36,254 nucleotides of DNA. It comes from an uncultured Ardenticatenia bacterium (lineage in GTDB: Bacteria > Chloroflexota > Anaerolineae > 4572-78 > NAK82). The notes under the pieces are model-generated. The model ran no database searches. It worked only from the letters and a program-made list of their open reading frames with translations, and was not told where the DNA came from. The stretch is taken from NCBI GenBank assembly GCA_937127125.1, contig CAKZLO010000014.1:1-36254 (forward strand). The letters run 5' to 3'. Below are positions 19,501 to 35,533 of this stretch, one piece after another (positions within the stretch are counted from its first letter, which is position 1; each line of letters begins with the position of its first letter). A program made the translations under genes and the position numbers.

Positions 19501-21375
19501 ATGGAATTGCACCAATTCCCTCGACCTCCTCAAGACAACGGACGCGGCGTCCATTGGAGTCTAAGCGTCTATGAATGGGGCAAGCGCAATTGGGACTTCT
19601 GGCGTGATCAGCTGTTGGCGATGAAAATCAAGTGGGTCAAGATTATGGATGACGGAGGTGGATCCGGTCTGCGTCTGGCGCGCCAGTTGATCGATATGGA
19701 GATTATGCCGGTCGTGCGACTCTATCGCCCCCAGCAAAATCCTGGTAACATTGGCCAGCGCGGACGAGAGACCGTGCGTCGTTACATTCAAGCGGGCGCC
19801 GTATACTTTGAGACCAACAATGAGCCAGATCTGGATTTGGAATGGCGAGCTCCCAAACCGCCCAACTGGCTGGACATCGTAGTGGATAACTTCATTATCG
19901 ACGCCGACATCATTTTGGAGGAAGGTGGGTATCCCGCAGTGCCTGCCTTCGGGGTGGGATCGCAGAAAGACCCTTTTGCGAAGATCGTCCAGCGTGGTCG
20001 ACGTGACATCCTGGATGGTGGAGCTTGGGCTGCGATTCACAACTATTGCCTGGGTCGGCCGCTCGAATACCCCAACGACCCTGTTAACCTCGAGGGCGTG
20101 CCTATTACTCAGGAAGAATGGGAAGCTATGGGTGGCATGTGGGCATGGGAGATGGGCGTGGACGCAGTCAATGAAGCACGCCGGCGGATGGCTAATCCCA
20201 ACGCCAGCATTATGACCGACAGTACTTGTTTCCGCGGGTTCGAGTATCTTAACCACCTTATCGTGCAGGCGGTGGGGCATTCTATTCCTATTATGATGAC
20301 CGAGGGAGGTTATAACGTGGGACAGCGCGCCGGCACAACCTTCGGCGATGATCCGCGCTATCCTAAGCCGACCCCAGTGGTTGCCAGCCAGATGAACTTG
20401 GAAATGTTCCGATATATGCAAGGCGATCGAGAGATATTGGGTCAGAAAGTACCTGACTATTTCTTCGCCGCAATGCCATGGCTGATCGCCGCGTACCGTA
20501 TTGGCGTGTATTCCCCCGTCGCAGAGAGCCAGGGACCATGGTTCACCCATCAGTTCGATCAGCAGTTCGGACTGCGTGGTGAGCTACCTCTAGTGCAAAT
20601 GCTCAAAGACCTGCCGACGCGCGTGCGTCAGGATGGTCCTGTGCCTCCCCAGTGGGCTAAATCACCCTACCATCAGGAGTTAGGACGCAATTGGGACTGT
20701 CGTCTAAAATATCTGGGGGTTCGGCTGGAACCAGTAACTGATAATAGTGGCCCCTATTGGAAGTTGGTAAGAGCACAGTGGTTCGACGAAGACGAAGTGG
20801 TCGGCGCAGGGTATATTTTTGTCAAAGCGCTTGACGAAAAAGGGAATCCTATTGAAAATGCTACATTCATCGTGGCTCGCAAGGATGCCAGCGACCAGGT
20901 TCCCACTAAAGGTTCCATAGACGGCTACTGGGGCAATTACCCAATGTACGGCTGCTTAGGTACTTACAAAGTGCGTATGAACCATCTGGGTTATCCATCT
21001 GAGACGGTCGCCGGCCTTGGTCTGGGATTGGAAGATGCGCCACGCCTGTGGACGCGTACCGCCTTTCGACTAACTTTCCAGCTGGTCAAGCCAGATCGAT
21101 CAAACGGTAGTGGCAAGCCGTTAGACGAAACAGAACGTCAGGCTGCTCTGCGTAGAGCAGTGATTAACGCTGCAAAACCCCACTTGATCCCGCTGGATCC
21201 CAGCACCCCATTTCATCAGTACGCACGCCGACACGGGTTAGGAGAGCGCCTTTCCACTGAGTTTACCCTTGAGCACGAAGGGGTGCAGTACAAAGCGCAA
21301 GCGTTTGTTAAAGGCGTCGTCTATGCGCCGATCAATGCACCTGATCAAGTGGCCCACGTGCCCTATACGGGGTAA
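19501..21375 (+). CDS. TIM-barrel, clan GH-A-like protein of unknown function
   Basis: Not recognised as a named family. It is 624 aa with no signal peptide, so cytoplasmic. Residues about 15-360 look like a TIM barrel. GVHWSLSVYEWG starts the first strand; FETNNEPDL at about 103-111 has Asn107-Glu108, as in the acid/base position of clan GH-A glycosidases; AIHNYCLG (His180-Asn181) follows; IPIMMTEGGYN holds Glu268, where a GH-A nucleophile would sit. Residues about 420-530 look beta-rich (AGYIFVKALDEKGNPIENATF), resembling an accessory Ig-like or carbohydrate-binding domain. An upstream in-frame TAG limits the start to the ATG at 19501. The gene is 42 bases before the aminotransferase, apparently co-transcribed with PDH genes, an odd context for a glycosidase. 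Catalytic function is inference; loss of activity is possible. Confidence 0.7.
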   Translation: MELHQFPRPPQDNGRGVHWSLSVYEWGKRNWDFWRDQLLAMKIKWVKIMDDGGGSGLRLARQLIDMEIMPVVRLYRPQQNPGNIGQRGRETVRRYIQAGAVYFETNNEPDLDLEWRAPKPPNWLDIVVDNFIIDADIILEEGGYPAVPAFGVGSQKDPFAKIVQRGRRDILDGGAWAAIHNYCLGRPLEYPNDPVNLEGVPITQEEWEAMGGMWAWEMGVDAVNEARRRMANPNASIMTDSTCFRGFEYLNHLIVQAVGHSIPIMMTEGGYNVGQRAGTTFGDDPRYPKPTPVVASQMNLEMFRYMQGDREILGQKVPDYFFAAMPWLIAAYRIGVYSPVAESQGPWFTHQFDQQFGLRGELPLVQMLKDLPTRVRQDGPVPPQWAKSPYHQELGRNWDCRLKYLGVRLEPVTDNSGPYWKLVRAQWFDEDEVVGAGYIFVKALDEKGNPIENATFIVARKDASDQVPTKGSIDGYWGNYPMYGCLGTYKVRMNHLGYPSETVAGLGLGLEDAPRLWTRTAFRLTFQLVKPDRSNGSGKPLDETERQAALRRAVINAAKPHLIPLDPSTPFHQYARRHGLGERLSTEFTLEHEGVQYKAQAFVKGVVYAPINAPDQVAHVPYTG

Positions 21376-26880: not shown

Positions 26881-28179
26881 CTACAGGTTTTCCAGCACAG
26901 CAAGGAGACGTTCTACCTCTTCGATGGTGTTGTAGTGAACAATTCCGACTCGCACCATACCCCCATCTTCTTCTACACCCAACCGTTCCGTCACTGAAAT
27001 AGCATAGTAATTTCCATCCCATACAAAGATACCTTCATCCCCAAGTCGTTGAGCGATCTCTTGAGGAGTGTAACCTTTCATACGGAAGGATACTGTGGGT
27101 ACACGTTCATCGAAGCGCTGTGTGTCAGTAATGCCATAGATCGTGATACCCGGGATGGCTTGTAACCCTCGCATCAGATGCTCGAACACGGGACGTTCGT
27201 AAGAGCGAATGGTTCATAGAGCTGCTTTTAGATTGCGGCGTCGTCCTTCCAGCTGGGAATACTGAGAGGCGAAACCCGTTCCGTAGCGGCTGCCTATTTC
27301 AGCCAAGTAGTCCACCGCTGCCATAGCACCCGCGATTCCCTCGTGATTCTTGGTGCCCGTTTCGAACTTATCGGGCGGCCGATCTTCTACTGGACGCACC
27401 TTGTAGGCTTGTAGGCGCTCCAGAACCTCATACCGCCCCCATAACACCCCGACATGGGGACCGAAAAACTTGTACACCGAACACACAAGAAAATCACAGC
27501 CGATCGCTTGTACGTCGATCGGCCCGTGCGGCGCGTAGTGCACAGCGTCCACATAGAGCCAGGCGCCTGCAGCGCGTGCCCACTCCGCAATCGTGCGCAC
27601 GTCATTGATGGTTCCTACAGCGTTCGATGCATATCCCACTGCGATTAGTCGCGTGCGTTTGCCAATGAGACGCTGAAAACCCATCATATCAAGGGTGCAA
27701 TCCTCAGGGTTAAAGTCTACGTAGCGGACCACCACACCAAGCTCTTGCAGAGCTGCCCAGGGAGCAATGTTGGCATCGTGATCCAGTCGTGTCACGATAA
27801 TCTCATCACCCGGACGCAACATTCGTCCGATAGCCCGGCTTATGGTGAACGTCAGGGTGGTCATATTAGGGCCGAAGACTATTTCATCCGCTGATGGCGC
27901 GTTCAGAAAATCAGCCATTGCCTGACGCGCCTCCTCAATTATGTGATCTGTGCGCCGACTAGTCTCATACAGTCCGTGGGTGTTAGCGTTCGAGCGCTTT
28001 AGATAATCGCTCACAGCGTCTATGACTGACTGTGGCACCTGTGTTCCACCCGGGCCGTCGAAAAAGACATAAGGTCTGCCACGCGAATCCGTCCGTTGCA
28101 GAGCAGGAAACTGGGCGCGTACCGAAGTCAGATCAGGCACAGAGGGGAAAAGAACGCGCTTGCTGGAAAGAGTATCCAT
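26881..28179 (-). pseudogene. Cysteine desulfurase-like class V aminotransferase interrupted by an in-frame TGA
   Basis: PLP-dependent class V aminotransferase of the cysteine desulfurase-like group. The reading frame runs from the ATG at 28179 (TAGGAG about 6 bases upstream, overlapping the mltG stop) to a TGA at 27216-27214, then continues in the same frame to a TAG at 26881. Conceptually it is a 432-codon protein, the normal family length. The front part holds FFDGPGGTQVPQSV, HDANIAPW, YVDAVHYAPHG and the PLP lysine Lys237 in VCSVYKFFGPHVG. The back part has VPTVSFRMKGYTP, FVWDGNYYA and VRVGIVHYN, needed for the small domain. The TGA replaces codon 322, at the helix joining the two. No frameshift is present. 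A recent nonsense mutation or base-calling error is likelier than recoding. Confidence 0.85.
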
Positions 28180-28188
28180 GAGCTGCTC

Positions 28189-29355
28189 CTACCGACCCCC
28201 CATGTATGTTTGCACGTTGCTTTCGTGTTCCTCCATTGTTGTGGCAAACACGTGTCCACCATCTCCACGCGCCACGAAATAGAGGTAATCGGTATTTGCT
28301 GGTTGCAAAACCGCCATTATCGCACTGATACCAGGGCTGCAGATCGGGCCGGGGGGCAATCCGGGATTCAAGTAGGTATTATATGGCGAATTGACACCTT
28401 GATATTCTTCGATGGTCACCGGTGTTTTCCACCATTGGCCGCTATCCGGTTGGTAACCCATTGCATACTGCACGGTTGGATCAGCGTTGAGATACATCCC
28501 ATGTTTCAGGCGATTGAGGTACACACTCGCGATAACAGGACGCTCATCAGGGATCACTGCCTCGCGCTCCACAATGGAAGCAAGTGTTAATACCTGATGG
28601 AAGCTCAACCCCTGAGCAGTAGCCATACGCTCCCATTCCACTGGCAAACGCGCCTGCAGTGTATTTAACATGCGGATCAGGAGATCCTCAGGAGCAGGTT
28701 GCACTGGTAGACGGTATGTCTCAGGAAACAGGTACCCCTCATAGCCCATCCCTGCCGGCTTGCTGGCCAGCAACGCGTGTTGTACAGCTTCCCCTTGTCG
28801 CACCACAGCCAGCAACACGCTGCCATCCATGATCCCTTGTTTTGAGAGCATATCTGCAACTTGCTCCGCGCGCCATCCCTCAGGAATGGTAACCGTAACC
28901 TCCTCAACCTTACTGTGCTGAAGTGCTTCCCCGATCTCACGCATGCTCATATTGCGACGGAGAATATATTCACCAGCTTCAAGGGAAGCATCCAGTCCGT
29001 TGTACTGAAGAAAGCGCCGAAAGAGATTAACGTCTGTGATTAGTCCCATCTCTTGCAGGCGGTTGCCCACACTGGCGGCGGTCTCTCCGACCTCTACTTT
29101 GAAATGAATCGGGGTAGGATCATCACTGAGAGGCCTGTTGATGCGATCGGCGTTCAACTGTAAATACAAACTGAGCGCCCAGTCTTCTACACCCTGCGGC
29201 CGTCGCTCGCCAGGTACATCGTTAAGGGCAATTGACACTTCACCACCACCTTGCGAGCGCAGGTACCAGACACCCACGCCAAAAACTGCGATGAGTGAAG
29301 CCAACGCAACCACGAAGAAAAACCCCCGAAGAAAAAGCCACAATTTCTTACGCAT
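28189..29355 (-). CDS. mltG: Endolytic murein transglycosylase MltG (YceG)
   Basis: Membrane-anchored lytic transglycosylase that cleaves nascent glycan strands and sets their length. The ATG at 29355 is chosen (AGGGAGG about 11 bases upstream); a TTG at 29385 would overlap ruvX. It gives 388 aa with one membrane helix (about 10-31). LysM-like subdomain VEVGETAASVGNRLQEMG starts near 88; IPEGWRAEQVADML near 157; the catalytic Glu263 is in LASIVEREAVIPDERP; then SVYLNRLKHGMYLNADPTVQYAMG and NPGLPPGPICSPG. It lies 26 bases after ruvX, a pairing common in bacteria, and the desulfurase-like gene follows 9 bases on. Intact. Confidence 0.95.
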   Translation of the reverse strand: MRKKLWLFLRGFFFVVALASLIAVFGVGVWYLRSQGGGEVSIALNDVPGERRPQGVEDWALSLYLQLNADRINRPLSDDPTPIHFKVEVGETAASVGNRLQEMGLITDVNLFRRFLQYNGLDASLEAGEYILRRNMSMREIGEALQHSKVEEVTVTIPEGWRAEQVADMLSKQGIMDGSVLLAVVRQGEAVQHALLASKPAGMGYEGYLFPETYRLPVQPAPEDLLIRMLNTLQARLPVEWERMATAQGLSFHQVLTLASIVEREAVIPDERPVIASVYLNRLKHGMYLNADPTVQYAMGYQPDSGQWWKTPVTIEEYQGVNSPYNTYLNPGLPPGPICSPGISAIMAVLQPANTDYLYFVARGDGGHVFATTMEEHESNVQTYMGGR

Positions 29356-29381
29356 GGGGTCTTGTACCTCCCTGTAGACAG

Positions 29382-29783
29382 TCAAACGTGATGGTCTAAA
29401 TACTCCTGCAAAATAACCGCTGCTGCCGCCGCGTCAACAGGAACACGATTCTTGCGGCCTGCTTCGGCCAGCAGATCTTGTGCTATAGCGGTCGAATAGC
29501 GCTCGTCCACCGTCTCCACAGGCACAGGGAGCACGCGTGCCAGCGCTCTAGCGTAGCGCGCCACCTTACGCGCCTGCGCTCTGATTTCTCCGTCCAGCGA
29601 GACAGGCAATCCTACAATTACACGCTGAGCTTCCAATCTTTGCACCAGCTCAGCCACTGTTGCGAAGTCCTCGGCGCGTGAGCGACGCTCGATAATCGTA
29701 TATGGTCTGGCAAGGGTACCACTCGGATCACTGACTGCTACCCCGATGCGGCGCTCACCTATATCTAATGCGATGATCACCAT
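29382..29783 (-). CDS. ruvX: RuvX/YqgF Holliday junction resolvase-like protein
   Basis: RNase H-fold nuclease implicated in pre-16S rRNA 5' end processing and possibly Holliday junctions, 133 aa. It opens with MVIIALDIGERRIGVAVSD (first acidic residue Asp7), then VIVGLPVSLDGE, VDERYSTAIAQ and the C-terminal acidic site VDAAAAAVILQEYLD. The ribosome-binding site is weak; the stop of the upstream baseplate-J-like gene is 23 bases away, so expression is probably from the alaS-led transcript. alaS-ruvX-mltG synteny is familiar from Firmicutes and others; here two envelope-type genes are inserted between alaS and ruvX. Confidence 0.95.
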   Translation of the reverse strand: MVIIALDIGERRIGVAVSDPSGTLARPYTIIERRSRAEDFATVAELVQRLEAQRVIVGLPVSLDGEIRAQARKVARYARALARVLPVPVETVDERYSTAIAQDLLAEAGRKNRVPVDAAAAAVILQEYLDHHV

Positions 29784-29805: not shown

Positions 29806-31488
29806 CTACTCCACCACAGTCACGCGAATCCGGAATGGCAGCCACGGCAGTCGCCCCAACCAGTCCGGTTCGACCGATATAGAGGGAGGCTCCGCCAGCG
29901 GCAAATGCTGAGCCAGCAATTGTTTTGCTTGCTCGAGTGGAAGTCCACGCACGATCCCAACAACCTGATCTCCATCTATTTGTGCTACTGCCTCAGCCGA
30001 AGCCTGCATCGCGAACGTAACCGAGCGGTCATCCGCCACACTTAGCACCTGACCAATCTCAAACTGGAGAGTGCGCGGATCCAGCTTGTGCCCTGAGGGA
30101 AGCTCCAACTGTAAAGCGGCCAATGCCAGTTGATTAGCATACTGGCCGGCAATAACTGTTCCACGCACCACTGCACGCATATCCAAGGAGAGCTGATCTG
30201 CCTGTTCCCCGTCCAAGCTAGGCGTGAAAATTCCCTCTAGTGGCAACACTACTACTGATTCAGGTGGCAAGAACTCTTGCTCACCCAACTCTCCTTTGAG
30301 GCGATTGAAACCCTCTTGATACATCTTTTGCAACACTATGGACCACAGACGATCCTTGTCCTCTCGCGTGACCACACCTGCTTGCTTAACTGCTCCCCCA
30401 CTTGTTGGTGTCTCATTTATCACGGCCAGCTGACGCGCAAGGATGGGGTTCTCAATACGGTTGATCTGGCCGGCTGCCACGTTGCCGATGGGGCCGGGAT
30501 CTACTGCGGTTATAGTTACAGCTGCCGTGGCGTTCAAAGCGGCTGGCACCGTCGCCGTGATATTGGTAACAAAACGCACGTTCAGGCCGCGTGAGGTACT
30601 AACAGTTGTGCTCATCGGCACCGTTACTTCCTGCAACGTGCGGTTGATAAATGTAACAGAGCCAACAGCGCGTTCCGTAGGCAAGGCACTGGCTCCAGAA
30701 GGCGCGATCACACCAACATCTCTTAGCTCCACCTGCGCCAGACGGGCCGGTATATCTAATGTCTGGTAATTGACCTTTTCTGCTTGCGGGTCAGCGCGCA
30801 AGGTCAACTCGGTTCGCACAGGGACACGCTTTGGTCTTAGATGAATTGAGCCTTCGGGGTAGAGGAGCAGTACCACCACACCAATCATAGCGGTCAAAAT
30901 TGCCAGCAAGACCAAGAAACCTGCAGCTTTGAGAAGACGTCGTACGATGACTTGTGAAGGGGTCAAACGGCGTCTACCCTTGATTTGAAAAGTGGGCAAC
31001 CACTCAGGACGCGCTACCCTTCGGTAAGGACGTTCTGGCAACGACACCCCCGGCACCTTGTCCGGTTCGATTACATCTTCGTGTGCTGTGACCAGCTCCT
31101 TTGGGCTGACTGGCTTTGCCTCTTCACCAGTAGATATTAACCATTGGGAACGGCGCGCCTGGTCAAGCGAGCCAAAAGTAGTCAGGCCAGCTTCAGCAGC
31201 GAGCTCGCTCACTCGCGGGTCCGGAGTGACCAGAGCCACTGTGCGTCCTGTGCTGCCAGCATAGCGTGCTATGAGCTTCAAGCTGACAAGGTTTCTCAAC
31301 ACGCGATTCCGAGATGGAAGCACAAGCAGCACTCGGGTTGCCTCAGCCCACTCCAGTCGATCTCGGACAATTGCAGCGTCGTCCCCCGGCTCAAGATAAA
31401 TCACCTGCGCCACCTCGTCCTGAGCAGACCGTTGAGCTCTGGGCACTGATCCGGCAACCTTCCTTGGACGTTGCGCCTGTTTCACCAT
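29806..31488 (-). CDS. Single-pass membrane protein with baseplate J/gp47-like extracytoplasmic region
   Basis: 560 aa in three parts. Residues about 25-112 form a Rossmann-like cytoplasmic domain (IYLEPGDDAAIVRDRLEWAEATRVLLVLP wording, then VALVTPDPRVSELAAEAG). A basic linker leads to one membrane helix at about 187-210. The rest, outside the membrane, is beta-rich with VGSVTFINRTLQEVTVPMST, TAAVTITAVDPGPIGNVAAG and other segments like Baseplate_J proteins. No phage genes are near, so this is a chromosomal envelope protein, not a tail part. Its ATG lies inside the end of the preceding ATPase gene (7-base overlap, no ribosome-binding site), pointing to coupled translation and a possible complex. 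Cytoplasmic domain, one helix and external domain next to a PilM/FtsA-like ATPase recalls PilM-PilN. Function unknown. Confidence 0.75.
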   Translation of the reverse strand: MVKQAQRPRKVAGSVPRAQRSAQDEVAQVIYLEPGDDAAIVRDRLEWAEATRVLLVLPSRNRVLRNLVSLKLIARYAGSTGRTVALVTPDPRVSELAAEAGLTTFGSLDQARRSQWLISTGEEAKPVSPKELVTAHEDVIEPDKVPGVSLPERPYRRVARPEWLPTFQIKGRRRLTPSQVIVRRLLKAAGFLVLLAILTAMIGVVVLLLYPEGSIHLRPKRVPVRTELTLRADPQAEKVNYQTLDIPARLAQVELRDVGVIAPSGASALPTERAVGSVTFINRTLQEVTVPMSTTVSTSRGLNVRFVTNITATVPAALNATAAVTITAVDPGPIGNVAAGQINRIENPILARQLAVINETPTSGGAVKQAGVVTREDKDRLWSIVLQKMYQEGFNRLKGELGEQEFLPPESVVVLPLEGIFTPSLDGEQADQLSLDMRAVVRGTVIAGQYANQLALAALQLELPSGHKLDPRTLQFEIGQVLSVADDRSVTFAMQASAEAVAQIDGDQVVGIVRGLPLEQAKQLLAQHLPLAEPPSISVEPDWLGRLPWLPFRIRVTVVE

Positions 31489-32795
31489 ACTACACTAGCC
31501 GCTGACCCTATCGCTGAGGCTAAAAGATCCCCCATAGGCCGGGGAGGTACATTCAACAGAAAAGAGGATTGGCCCGATCGGCACGAGCTTAGACAGCTTC
31601 CCAAGGACTGAACCTCTACAGCACGATCAAAGTGCAGCCCTGGTACTGTTGCCACACTGCTCGCCGTGGACATAAGATCCGGTAGCAAGCTCCCGCCCCC
31701 AGTGACGAACACGCGACCTGGGAGGATACCCTCATCGTTTCCCGTAGTGTACGCTAATGATGCATCACTTTCTGGTCTCGCTGATCTACTATTGTGATGC
31801 TCGGCCGTCAGATTGCGGAGTGCAGATACAAACGATTCGAACCAGCTGCTCAGTGGTTTTTCCAATGCACGCTTTACCAGGAAGACATCCTCCCGTGACA
31901 GAGTATTGTCTACATAGGCGCGTTTCAGCGCCTCTGCGCGTTCTGGTATGCATCGAAACTTCTGAGCCAGACTCGATGTAAAGAGCTCACCTCCCTGAGG
32001 CCACCACACAGTCGCTACCAAGGCATTGTGGCGGATCAAGTTGAGGTTGGTGCCTTGCCCACCCACATCGAGCAAGATCGCGTCGCGTTGTGGCACCAAC
32101 GTCGCCAGAGACTGGGGACCAGCCACTACTGCATAGACAGATACTTCCAACCTCTTGGCGATCGTCGCCACAACGTCCACAATTCTCGACGGCGCAGCAA
32201 AGCCAAAGATAGATGCGCTCAGCATTTTACCTTTGAGACCGATCGCATCGCTGACGGGATGGCCGTCTATCGCGAGCATCAAACTGGTGGCCGAAGCAAG
32301 CGGCTTCCATGTTTCATTCTGGTTGTGATGGTCGATTAGCTGTTCGTGAAGTAGCTTCTCTACACGTTCGCGCAGTCTCGCTACCTCGCGCGCTGAGACA
32401 GGAGCTGCTGGATCAAGGCGTCTTTGGTGTAAAGTGACAAGCCTACTGCGAATAAAACGTGCCGGCAGGCAGAAGACTGCATCATCTGGGACTACTTTAT
32501 GAGCTACATCTGACGCTGTACGATCCTCTGCAGTTGTCAGGGCTTCGTCTGCAGCAACAGCGAGCGTAAGGATTGACGTGCGATCACCGTCAAGCGCGCA
32601 AGCATGCACCGAGGCAATGCCGTAGCCCAGAATCCGCACGGCGCCATTTTCCCGTTGTGCCACTATCGCTTTCAGTGAATCAGCACCGAGATCAAGCAAA
32701 CTAAGATGCTTGAAACGCCTGTAGTTAGCTTTCTTCGGAGAGCTCCTGAGGGTGGCTGGATAATAGGTTCTGATCGAATCAAATAAGTTGCGCAT
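31482..32795 (-). CDS. FtsA/PilM-like actin-fold ATPase
   Basis: Cytoplasmic protein of the FtsA/PilM/MreB ASKHA fold, about 437 aa. Seen are the phosphate-1 loop LLDLGADSLKAIVAQ near the N-terminus, phosphate-2 LLDVGGQGTNLNLIRH in the middle, WWPQGGELFTSSLAQKF as in PilM-type proteins, and the adenosine motif VFVTGGGSLLPDL. The start is uncertain: the ATG at 32795 looks natural, while a TTG at 32822 would overlap the alaS stop by 4 bases and extend the protein by 9 residues; neither has a clear ribosome-binding site. Type IV pilus genes are absent from the window. Overlap with the downstream membrane-protein gene suggests that they form a complex. Divergent from classical FtsA, so pilM or ftsA is not assigned. 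Confidence 0.75.
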   Translation of the reverse strand: MRNLFDSIRTYYPATLRSSPKKANYRRFKHLSLLDLGADSLKAIVAQRENGAVRILGYGIASVHACALDGDRTSILTLAVAADEALTTAEDRTASDVAHKVVPDDAVFCLPARFIRSRLVTLHQRRLDPAAPVSAREVARLRERVEKLLHEQLIDHHNQNETWKPLASATSLMLAIDGHPVSDAIGLKGKMLSASIFGFAAPSRIVDVVATIAKRLEVSVYAVVAGPQSLATLVPQRDAILLDVGGQGTNLNLIRHNALVATVWWPQGGELFTSSLAQKFRCIPERAEALKRAYVDNTLSREDVFLVKRALEKPLSSWFESFVSALRNLTAEHHNSRSARPESDASLAYTTGNDEGILPGRVFVTGGGSLLPDLMSTASSVATVPGLHFDRAVEVQSLGSCLSSCRSGQSSFLLNVPPRPMGDLLASAIGSAASVVW

Positions 32796-32818: not shown

Positions 32819-35533
32819 TCAATCGTGCAATGCCTGTCGCACCAACTCCGGCACCACTTCCAACGCCTCGTCCATCCGTGTCACATCATGACCACCTGCC
32901 TGAGCCAAGGTGGGTTTGCCGCCGCCGCTTCCCCCCACCTTTTGTGCCACAGCACGCACGAGATTGCCTGCGTGTACTCCGCGTTGGACTAGGTCGGGAG
33001 TTACAGCTGCTACGAAATTTGGCTTGCCACTTAGCACTGCGCCCAAAACTATCACACCAGAACCAACTCGTTCGCGAAACCAGTCGCTCATCTCACGCAA
33101 TATGGTGATGTCGCTCACGTCCACTTTGACGGATAGAACATTCACACTGTCGACTCTCTTAACCTCACTCAGGATGCGCTCGAAATCTCGACGAGCCAGC
33201 TCACGTTGCAAAGTGGCAATCATCTTCTCTTTAGCCTGTAACTGATCCAGAAGGCTTAGGACCTTGCGATCTGTCTCCTCAGGAGCACAGCCCAGGAAAG
33301 CAGCTGCGGCGTCAAGCACCATCATTCGCTTCTGCACCAGCTGGTAGGCATGACGACCTGTCACAGCTTCAATGCGTCGGATACCAGCGGCGACGCCACT
33401 TTCCGATATGATATGAAATAGCCCAATGTCGCCAGTGTACTCCACATGGGTCCCGCCACACAGCTCCTGGCTGAAGATCTCACTATCCTCGCCGATTTTC
33501 ACCACACGAACCAAATCGCCATACTTCTCACCAAAAAGTGCTATCGCTCCCTCAGCTACAGCCTGACGATATTCCTCTTGCTCGATACGCACGGCATAGT
33601 TGGCCAGAATAGCTTCATTCACCAAGCTTTCAACTGTGCGCAGTTCCTCTTGAGTCAACATAGTGGGATGGGTGAAATCAAAGCGCAGACGATCTGGCGC
33701 CACGAGAGATCCCGCCTGCTGGACATGCTCGCCCAGCACATAACGCAACTCACTGTGCAGCAAATGCGTGGCAGTGTGGTTGCGCATTATGTCCCAACGA
33801 CGATCCAGGTCTACCGAAGCCAAAACAGTATCATCTACGCGCACAGTGCCTGTTTTCACTTGGCCAACGTGAACGACTAACCCGGCCACAGGCTGCCTCG
33901 CGTCTTCTACATGGACTTCCCAGATTGGAGGCTCGTCTGGATTGTGATAGTGCGCTATCGAGCCAGTATCGCTAACTTGACCTCCTGATTCTACGTAAAA
34001 GACAGTATCGGCTAACACTATCTCAACTTGTTCCCCGGCCCGAGCCTCGCGGACGGGTGTCCTGTCCCGCAGGATCGCCACGACTTTTGTCTCGACCTGG
34101 GCATTCTCATAAGGGTTATAGTTGACACCACGCGCGCCCAGCTTGTGTTCCGTTTTCAACCGCTCAAGCAGTTCAGCGTAAAAGGTCAGGTTATCCAGCT
34201 CAGCCAATCTGAAACGCTCCGATGAAGAGACCCTTTCGTGCTCAGCCATTGCCTCACGATAGCCAGCCTCGTCAACAAAAAGGCCATTTTCCGCAGCAAT
34301 GTCACGCGTGAGCTCAAAGGGGAATCCGTAAGTCGCATGCAGTTTGAAAGCTTCAGCGCCTGAGATTGTAGTCTGACCTTCGCTCTTCAGTTGATCCATC
34401 AGCTCGGTCAGCATATTCAATCCGATTTCGTAGGTCTGGTAGAAACGCTCTTCCTCTTGGGTGATAACGTTCAGTATGAAATCGGCGCGTGTGCGCAGCT
34501 CGGTGTAGTGATCGGACATTTGGTCGATCACCACACGCGCGACCTCGGCCAGAAAAGGTTCCGTGAAGCCCGCAATGCGGCCGTAGCGCGCGGCGCGTCG
34601 TAAGATCAGGCGCAACACGTAGCGTCGTCCCTCGTTACCAGGTATAACGCCATCCCCGATCATAAAGGTTATGGCGCGCCCATGATCAGCAATGACACGA
34701 TATGCTACCAAATGCTGTTCCCTTTGTGTCTCAGTGTGGCCAAGCAGCTGCTGGACCCTATCCATAATGGGTGTGAAAAGATCGGTATCGTAATTGCTCC
34801 GTTTCCCTTGAATGACTGCTACGAGACGTTCCAGACCCATGCCGGTATCCACACCAGTTTTGGGGAGTGGTACGCGTGTGCCATCTGGCTTCTGGTTGAA
34901 CTGCATGAAAACCAGGTTCCATATCTCCAACCAACGCTCGCAGCCGTTGTCCAGGGCAACACTGCAATCGGGTTGACCACAGGTGCAATACTCTGCGCCC
35001 CAGTCATAATGTACTTCGCTGGTAGGGCCACACGGGCCAGTATCGCCCATCATCCAGAAGTTGGTCTTATCACCCATGCGGTACACACGGGCAGGATCAA
35101 CACCAATGTCACTGATCCAATAGCCCAATGCTTCGTCATCGTCACAATGTACCGTGTAGTACAGCCGTCTGGGGTCAAGGCCATACACTTGGGTCAGGCA
35201 CTCGTAGGCGTAGCGAATAGCTTCTTTCTTGAAATAATCCCCGAAGGAAAAGTTGCCTAGCATCTCAAAGAAGGTATGATGTCGAGGAGAAGGGCCTACG
35301 TTTTCCAGGTCGTTATGCTTGCCAGAGACCCGCATGCACTTTTGCACCGTCGCCGCACGCTGGTAGTCGCGCTTTTCGAGGCCCAGGAATACATCTTTGA
35401 ACTGTACCATGCCCGCATTAGTGAATAGCAACGTGGGATCGTTGCCCGGTACCAGCGATGCGCTTGGTACAATTACGTGCCCGTTTTGGCGGAAATAATC
35501 GAGAAACGCCTGGCGAATTTGGGCACTATTCAT
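32819..35533 (-). CDS. alaS: Alanyl-tRNA synthetase
   Basis: Charges tRNA-Ala in the cytoplasm; 904 aa, slightly longer than the 875-880 typical. It has the N-terminal class II core (FLDYFRQNGHVIVPSASLVPGNDPTLLFTNAGM), motif 2-like TFFEMLGNFSFGDYFKKEAI, and motif 3 GMGLERL. The editing domain has the HxxxH in NHTATHLLH and the CGGTH zinc-binding pair. The C-Ala domain ends in a Gly-rich GGSGGGKPTLAQAGG. A Cys-rich stretch in the core (CTCGQPDC ... GCERW) may bind zinc, as seen in some lineages. It heads a long minus-strand operon (alaS, ATPase, baseplate-J-like, ruvX, mltG, desulfurase-like). No T-box was seen upstream. Confidence 0.98.
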   Translation of the reverse strand: MNSAQIRQAFLDYFRQNGHVIVPSASLVPGNDPTLLFTNAGMVQFKDVFLGLEKRDYQRAATVQKCMRVSGKHNDLENVGPSPRHHTFFEMLGNFSFGDYFKKEAIRYAYECLTQVYGLDPRRLYYTVHCDDDEALGYWISDIGVDPARVYRMGDKTNFWMMGDTGPCGPTSEVHYDWGAEYCTCGQPDCSVALDNGCERWLEIWNLVFMQFNQKPDGTRVPLPKTGVDTGMGLERLVAVIQGKRSNYDTDLFTPIMDRVQQLLGHTETQREQHLVAYRVIADHGRAITFMIGDGVIPGNEGRRYVLRLILRRAARYGRIAGFTEPFLAEVARVVIDQMSDHYTELRTRADFILNVITQEEERFYQTYEIGLNMLTELMDQLKSEGQTTISGAEAFKLHATYGFPFELTRDIAAENGLFVDEAGYREAMAEHERVSSSERFRLAELDNLTFYAELLERLKTEHKLGARGVNYNPYENAQVETKVVAILRDRTPVREARAGEQVEIVLADTVFYVESGGQVSDTGSIAHYHNPDEPPIWEVHVEDARQPVAGLVVHVGQVKTGTVRVDDTVLASVDLDRRWDIMRNHTATHLLHSELRYVLGEHVQQAGSLVAPDRLRFDFTHPTMLTQEELRTVESLVNEAILANYAVRIEQEEYRQAVAEGAIALFGEKYGDLVRVVKIGEDSEIFSQELCGGTHVEYTGDIGLFHIISESGVAAGIRRIEAVTGRHAYQLVQKRMMVLDAAAAFLGCAPEETDRKVLSLLDQLQAKEKMIATLQRELARRDFERILSEVKRVDSVNVLSVKVDVSDITILREMSDWFRERVGSGVIVLGAVLSGKPNFVAAVTPDLVQRGVHAGNLVRAVAQKVGGSGGGKPTLAQAGGHDVTRMDEALEVVPELVRQALHD

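Follow-up and report, generated by a model that had tools for sequence, protein, structure and literature searches.

In Firmicutes, the cluster alaS-yrzL-ruvX-mltG carries IreB, a substrate of PASTA-domain kinases, in the slot equivalent to that of the membrane protein described here. How the Chloroflexota envelope is built is little understood and contested (monoderm or not, multilayered). FtsA and PilM bind their respective partners, FtsN and PilN, in the cleft between subdomains IA and IC (PMC7613929). The PASTA kinase IreK of E. faecalis phosphorylates a homologue of the transglycosylase MltG (PMC12369325). No paper on the gene pair reported below was found in the literature searched.

We analyzed a stretch of 36,254 nt (hereafter, the window) from an uncultured Ardenticatenia bacterium, in which an ATPase gene and a membrane-protein gene are arranged with their neighbors as follows.

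32819..35533, minus strand: alaS, upstream neighbor, part of the conserved cluster (profile search and relatives' loci)
31482..32795, minus strand: gene for an actin-like ATPase of the FtsA/PilM fold, 437 aa (ORF call, profiles, and structure search)
31482..31488, minus strand: 7-bp overlap of the ATPase and membrane-protein genes, ATGGTGA (sequence)
29806..31488, minus strand: gene for a single-pass membrane protein with a Baseplate_J ectodomain, 560 aa (ORF call, Pfam, and AlphaFold)
29382..29783, minus strand: ruvX, downstream neighbor (profile search)
28189..29385, minus strand: mltG, encoding an endolytic transglycosylase, downstream (profile search)

Both ORFs of a preliminary description of this DNA (29806-32795, minus strand) were present, as was their 7-base overlap, which becomes 4 bp with a GTG start. 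Their tight position between alaS and ruvX-mltG was also as described: the alaS stop at 32819 lies 23 bp before the ATG of the ATPase gene, ruvX lies 22 bp downstream of the membrane-protein gene and overlaps mltG, and this order is conserved in the phylum. The rest of the window consists of housekeeping and metabolic genes, and profile searches found no phage, tail, or pilus genes in it, in agreement with the earlier account. A class-V aminotransferase gene of the window (cysteine-desulfurase-like; 26881-28179, minus strand) is broken up into an ORF at 27214-28179 and another at 26881-27189; since the gene is intact in a relative of the same genus (432 aa, L262), the split is due to a frameshift or an assembly error, or marks a pseudogene. 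On the plus strand, an ORF of 624 aa (19501-21375) had no Pfam match.

The two proteins were modeled singly with AlphaFold, with mean pLDDT values of 82 and 85. The model of the ATPase and the structure search revealed a complete FtsA/PilM fold including subdomain 1C. The Z scores were 34.5 for E. coli FtsA (356 of 383 FtsA residues aligned), 30.8 and 30.5 for PilM (3jc8 and 2ych, respectively), and 23.8 for EutJ, which has no 1C, and they bear out the FtsA/PilM-like actin fold proposed earlier. In profile searches, the ATPase stayed below the cut-offs for Pfam FtsA (PF14450; 1.5e-6, 29.1 bits vs 31.8), TIGR ftsA (TIGR01174; 7e-11, 41.8 bits vs 175.85), and pilM (TIGR01175; 13.2 bits vs 133). 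Canonical FtsA was ruled out as its identity by the true ftsA beside ftsZ elsewhere in the genome, where contig C10 holds a ddl-ftsQ-ftsA-ftsZ cluster of the regular kind. Against an FtsA profile, FtsA proteins scored 437-655 bits (297-320 for two fragments of one broken copy), and the ATPases scored at most 118 bits. A tree of 96 sequences, which took in 57 ATPases and 29 FtsA proteins, contained three separate clades, namely the ATPases, FtsA, and PilM-like proteins including PilM-PilN fusions (support 0.82, 1.0, and 0.76, respectively). Proteins of about 500 aa that resemble PilM-PilN fusions were observed in small-genome, MraY-less Chloroflexota (L284-L292), whose genomes contain neither the module nor MraY.

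The identity of the ATPase as a type IV pilus PilM was ruled out by profile, tree, and context. The pilM cut-off was passed by 0 of 121 genomes and no pilus cluster was found, which disposes of the possibility, considered in the preliminary description, that the ATPase belongs to a normal type IV pilus cluster. An exapted alignment platform for export or pili, resembling PilM-PilN and serving an appendage encoded elsewhere, for example Tad pili or an archaellum, could be argued from the PilM fold, from two T2SSE-family ATPases encoded elsewhere in the window's genome, and from the fact that Chloroflexota use PilN and PilO, not PilM, around archaella (PMC13319060). We consider such a platform very unlikely, because no pilus genes lie nearby, none of the 121 genomes scored passed the pilM cut-off, and a module found in almost every good genome of the class is hard to reconcile with a role in a single appendage. 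We saw no sign of export or injection, and the export device envisaged earlier is not supported.

The nucleotide motifs of the window's ATPase read LLDLGADS, LLDVGGQGTNL, and VTGGGSLL. Deep lineages have them in canonical form (DIGTE, DVGGGTTD, and GGGS), and several Anaerolineae lineages have lost them. The ATPase is the fastest-evolving gene product of the cluster, with 58% identity to that of a congener, compared with 80%, 83%, and 90% for the J protein, MltG, and AlaS, respectively. In the alignment, its final residue (437) falls on FtsA residue 388, with no residues beyond; as it stops where the FtsA core stops, it is devoid of the FtsA-type C-terminal membrane helix. These features bear on a division or elongation scaffold, in which the ATPase would polymerize under the membrane like FtsA and bring the membrane protein and MltG to sites of growth. 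No fold is closer than that of FtsA, deep lineages retain intact motifs, and the membrane protein co-occurs with MraY and MltG (see below), but we judge a scaffold of this kind decidedly unlikely in view of the missing membrane helix, the loss of the motifs in several lineages and of the gene in about half, and the normal ftsA-ftsZ pair elsewhere in the genome. In many lineages the ATPase is dispensable and in decay, and it is therefore better described as an adaptor than as an engine.

The membrane protein was divided into the following parts.

31123..31419, minus strand: cytoplasmic alpha/beta domain, residues 24-122 (AlphaFold; STAS-like fold, Z about 8)
30961..31122, minus strand: disordered juxtamembrane cytoplasmic linker, residues 123-176 (AlphaFold)
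30862..30960, minus strand: membrane-spanning helix, residues 177-209 (AlphaFold)
30382..30687, minus strand: core domain of the baseplate-J type, residues 268-369, more conserved than any other part, with PGPxGNV ... GG ... D (Pfam, alignments, and structure search)
29809..30366, minus strand: C-terminal helix and two alpha/beta domains, residues 375-560 (order as in phage J proteins)

The AlphaFold model supports the single-pass topology with a cytoplasmic domain and a beta-rich external part that had been predicted from the sequence; the beta-rich ectodomain comprises residues 212-560, and a beta region precedes the J core. The protein matched Baseplate_J (PF04865) at residues 269-366 with 3.4e-7 and 30.3 bits, above the gathering score of 21.1, and the structure search aligned the J core with phage J proteins over 99 residues (Z 14.7). 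A domain of the Streptomyces oxidase GlxA is a further structural match to the core (Z 12.8). The idea of close phage relatives was dropped: in IMG/VR, four contigs matched the protein at the J core alone (residues 290-370). STAS homology of the N-terminal domain drew no support from sequence: the resemblance is in fold only, and hhalign gave a profile-profile probability below 1%, no better than controls. In view of this lack of profile support, the domain is called a plain alpha/beta domain here.

The homology between the J core and phage J proteins is genuine, as would be expected of a domesticated prophage or a remnant of a contractile injection system. Such an origin is nevertheless highly improbable for a single-copy core gene that encodes a membrane anchor, is widespread in one phylum, and sits in a fixed housekeeping slot; there are no tail genes, and the membrane protein is the sole Baseplate_J match in the window's genome. 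Core status, slot, and absent tail genes led us to reject this candidate.

The membrane protein was found in 231 of 301 Chloroflexota genomes, in 224 of 235 good genomes from the class to which the window belongs, and in 55 of 61 relatives, nearly always in the slot between alaS and ruvX-mltG. It is an undescribed single-copy core protein of the envelope, near-universal in walled Chloroflexota. The gene order alaS-(ATPase)-J protein-ruvX-mltG is repeated across classes and deep lineages, and a contig scan with a narrow alignment yielded 17 named loci, all from Chloroflexota (Anaerolineae, Ardenticatenia, or Chloroflexi MAGs). Since the membrane protein is 80-81% identical in congeners and occupies the same slot phylum-wide, the pair is not a product of chance. 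Homologues of the module may be present in Patescibacteria; an approximate consensus for homologues of this type had no match in viral contigs.

The neighborhood survey of the pair across Chloroflexota gave a divided picture: the ATPase gene lies directly before the membrane-protein gene in 31 of the 33 class relatives that have both, whereas about half of the genomes have the membrane protein alone. One of the two exceptions is at a contig edge (G045), and the other, with the two genes on different contigs (G015), is the only clear unlinked case. In the latter (L066), the solitary ATPase gene has a prfB-like gene as its neighbor, and the J-protein gene is located by a VapC-like gene. About half of the lineages lack the ATPase, and in many of them alaS is followed directly by the J-protein gene. 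No ATPase was seen in the absence of the membrane protein among the surveyed genomes, and lineages with neither gene still have alaS-ruvX-mltG. We infer that the ancestral cluster consisted of five genes and that the ATPase gene, or both genes, were later lost cleanly and repeatedly. The gene pair is an old, conserved fixture of walled Chloroflexota. Local variants of the cluster were also observed: a DUF4058 gene is inserted between ruvX and mltG (L064:6420-7232), an extra DUF1292 (YrzB-like) gene is present as in Firmicutes (L180:9314-9559), and in five of nine sister-family genomes (L063:9843-10283, L100:10040-10468, L252, L255, and L256) the position downstream of ruvX, where mltG is expected, is taken by an RsbW-like HATPase_c_2 gene.

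The form of the membrane protein depends on the ATPase. Among the 39 ATPase-bearing copies, no linker between the N-terminal domain and the membrane helix is shorter than 40 residues, whereas 15 of 38 ATPase-less copies fall below this length (p 4e-6, phylogeny ignored). The N-terminal domain is kept in 39 of 39 copies with the ATPase and in 38 of 44 without it (p 0.03, phylogeny ignored), and its loss was found solely in ATPase-less copies. In a distance-correlation test of co-evolution between the ATPase and its partner, the ATPase distances were saturated. The dependence of the linker and the N-terminal domain fits an adaptor that would hold the membrane-proximal segment in the way that FtsA and PilM bind their partners in the IA-IC cleft. 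The parallel with PilM-PilN and with FtsA and its partners, drawn in the preliminary description, finds support in the fold and in the two-protein layout across the membrane. As about half of the lineages lack the ATPase, its role is not essential.

Co-occurrence with cell-wall genes was analyzed by Fisher test in one set of 301 genomes, using a table compiled by hand from match lists. An MraY-type match was absent in 0 of 231 carriers of the membrane protein and in 31 of 70 non-carriers, a correlation that represents few independent events because the MraY-less genomes, largely small genomes of related families, mostly form one clade. All 31 genomes without MraY also lack the membrane protein. 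MltG was absent in 5 of 231 carriers and in 34 of 70 non-carriers. The module is not required for a wall, as 39 genomes have MraY and lack the module. The alaS-ruvX-mltG cluster persists without the pair, and adjacency to mltG alone is thus weak evidence. The suggestion that MltG ties the pair to peptidoglycan growth holds as a link to the wall, which now draws on MraY/MltG co-occurrence and no longer on gene adjacency alone. The pair probably senses or organizes the cell wall.

In one family of large-genome Chloroflexota, Ser/Thr kinase, membrane helix, and J ectodomain are fused in one protein, sometimes in tandem (L170, which is G123, L265, L266, and L268); the J ectodomains occupy the place of PASTA domains. 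The fusions raise the alternative of wall-stress signaling, in which the J ectodomain would be a PASTA-like sensor and a kinase or partner-switching signal would be passed to MltG. The slot beside mltG, together with the phosphorylation of the E. faecalis MltG homologue by IreK (PMC12369325), argues for such signaling, as do the RsbW-like kinase gene 3′ of ruvX in five of nine sister-family genomes and the STAS-like fold of the N-terminal domain. This domain, however, has no sequence link to STAS, a conserved phospho-serine was not seen in the alignments, the kinase fusions are confined to one family, and the RsbW-like neighbor is local. We regard signaling of this type as rather unlikely.

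The best reading, which we hold tentatively and at slightly less than even confidence, is a receptor or scaffold in the wall zone, with an accessory adaptor of the FtsA/PilM type holding its cytoplasmic tail. The adaptor is called accessory because many lineages lost or inactivated the ATPase. The J-type ectodomain would lie in the peptidoglycan zone and bind wall material or itself, with one helix crossing the membrane and the alpha/beta domain reaching into the cytoplasm on the flexible linker. The ATP-bound adaptor may grip this juxtamembrane linker directly, in the manner of FtsA-FtsN and PilM-PilN, and, gated by its nucleotide, cluster or gate the receptor, by which wall growth would be tuned via neighbors such as MltG. 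A more specific proposal, which we regard as unlikely, is a phylum-specific complex for wall sensing and control, in which a domesticated baseplate-J domain would replace PASTA as the outer sensor and a protein of the FtsA/PilM class, instead of a kinase, would read the cytoplasmic tail, so that the FtsA/PilM/EutJ superfamily would have a third functional branch. The ATPase partner is traceable and was lost many times, providing a natural experiment on the function of FtsA/PilM-type adaptors, and the membrane protein shows that cells, too, put the phage J fold to use. The predictions on the interface, the wall ligand, and the deletion phenotype are directly testable.

Compared with phage baseplate J/gp47 (PF04865), the membrane protein has a J core above the Pfam cut-off, followed by alpha/beta domains in the same order, but it is membrane-anchored and cellular, and is encoded by a single gene outside any tail context. 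The PASTA-domain Ser/Thr kinases (IreK/PrkC) with IreB and MltG are matched by the kinase-membrane helix-ectodomain fusions and by the location in the mltG cluster; the J domain stands where PASTA stands, and a kinase domain is missing from the window's protein. PilM-PilN of type IV pili shares the fold of the ATPase and the two-protein arrangement across the membrane. In contrast to that system, the locus has alaS, ruvX, and mltG as neighbors and no pilN/O/P/Q or other pilus genes, the tail of PilN is about 30 aa and PilN has no J domain, and the Chloroflexota PilM-PilN fusions form a clade apart from the ATPase. Like FtsA, the ATPase has an actin fold with the FtsA-type extra subdomain, and like FtsN, its partner is bitopic with a cytoplasmic tail and an external domain. 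The ATPase differs from FtsA in belonging to a separate clade, lacking the C-terminal membrane helix, and being encoded away from ftsZ, and the partner differs from FtsN in that its cytoplasmic domain is folded and its ectodomain is of the J type. All parts are members of known superfamilies, and what is new is their arrangement, within the theme of an actin-fold adaptor and a bitopic partner.
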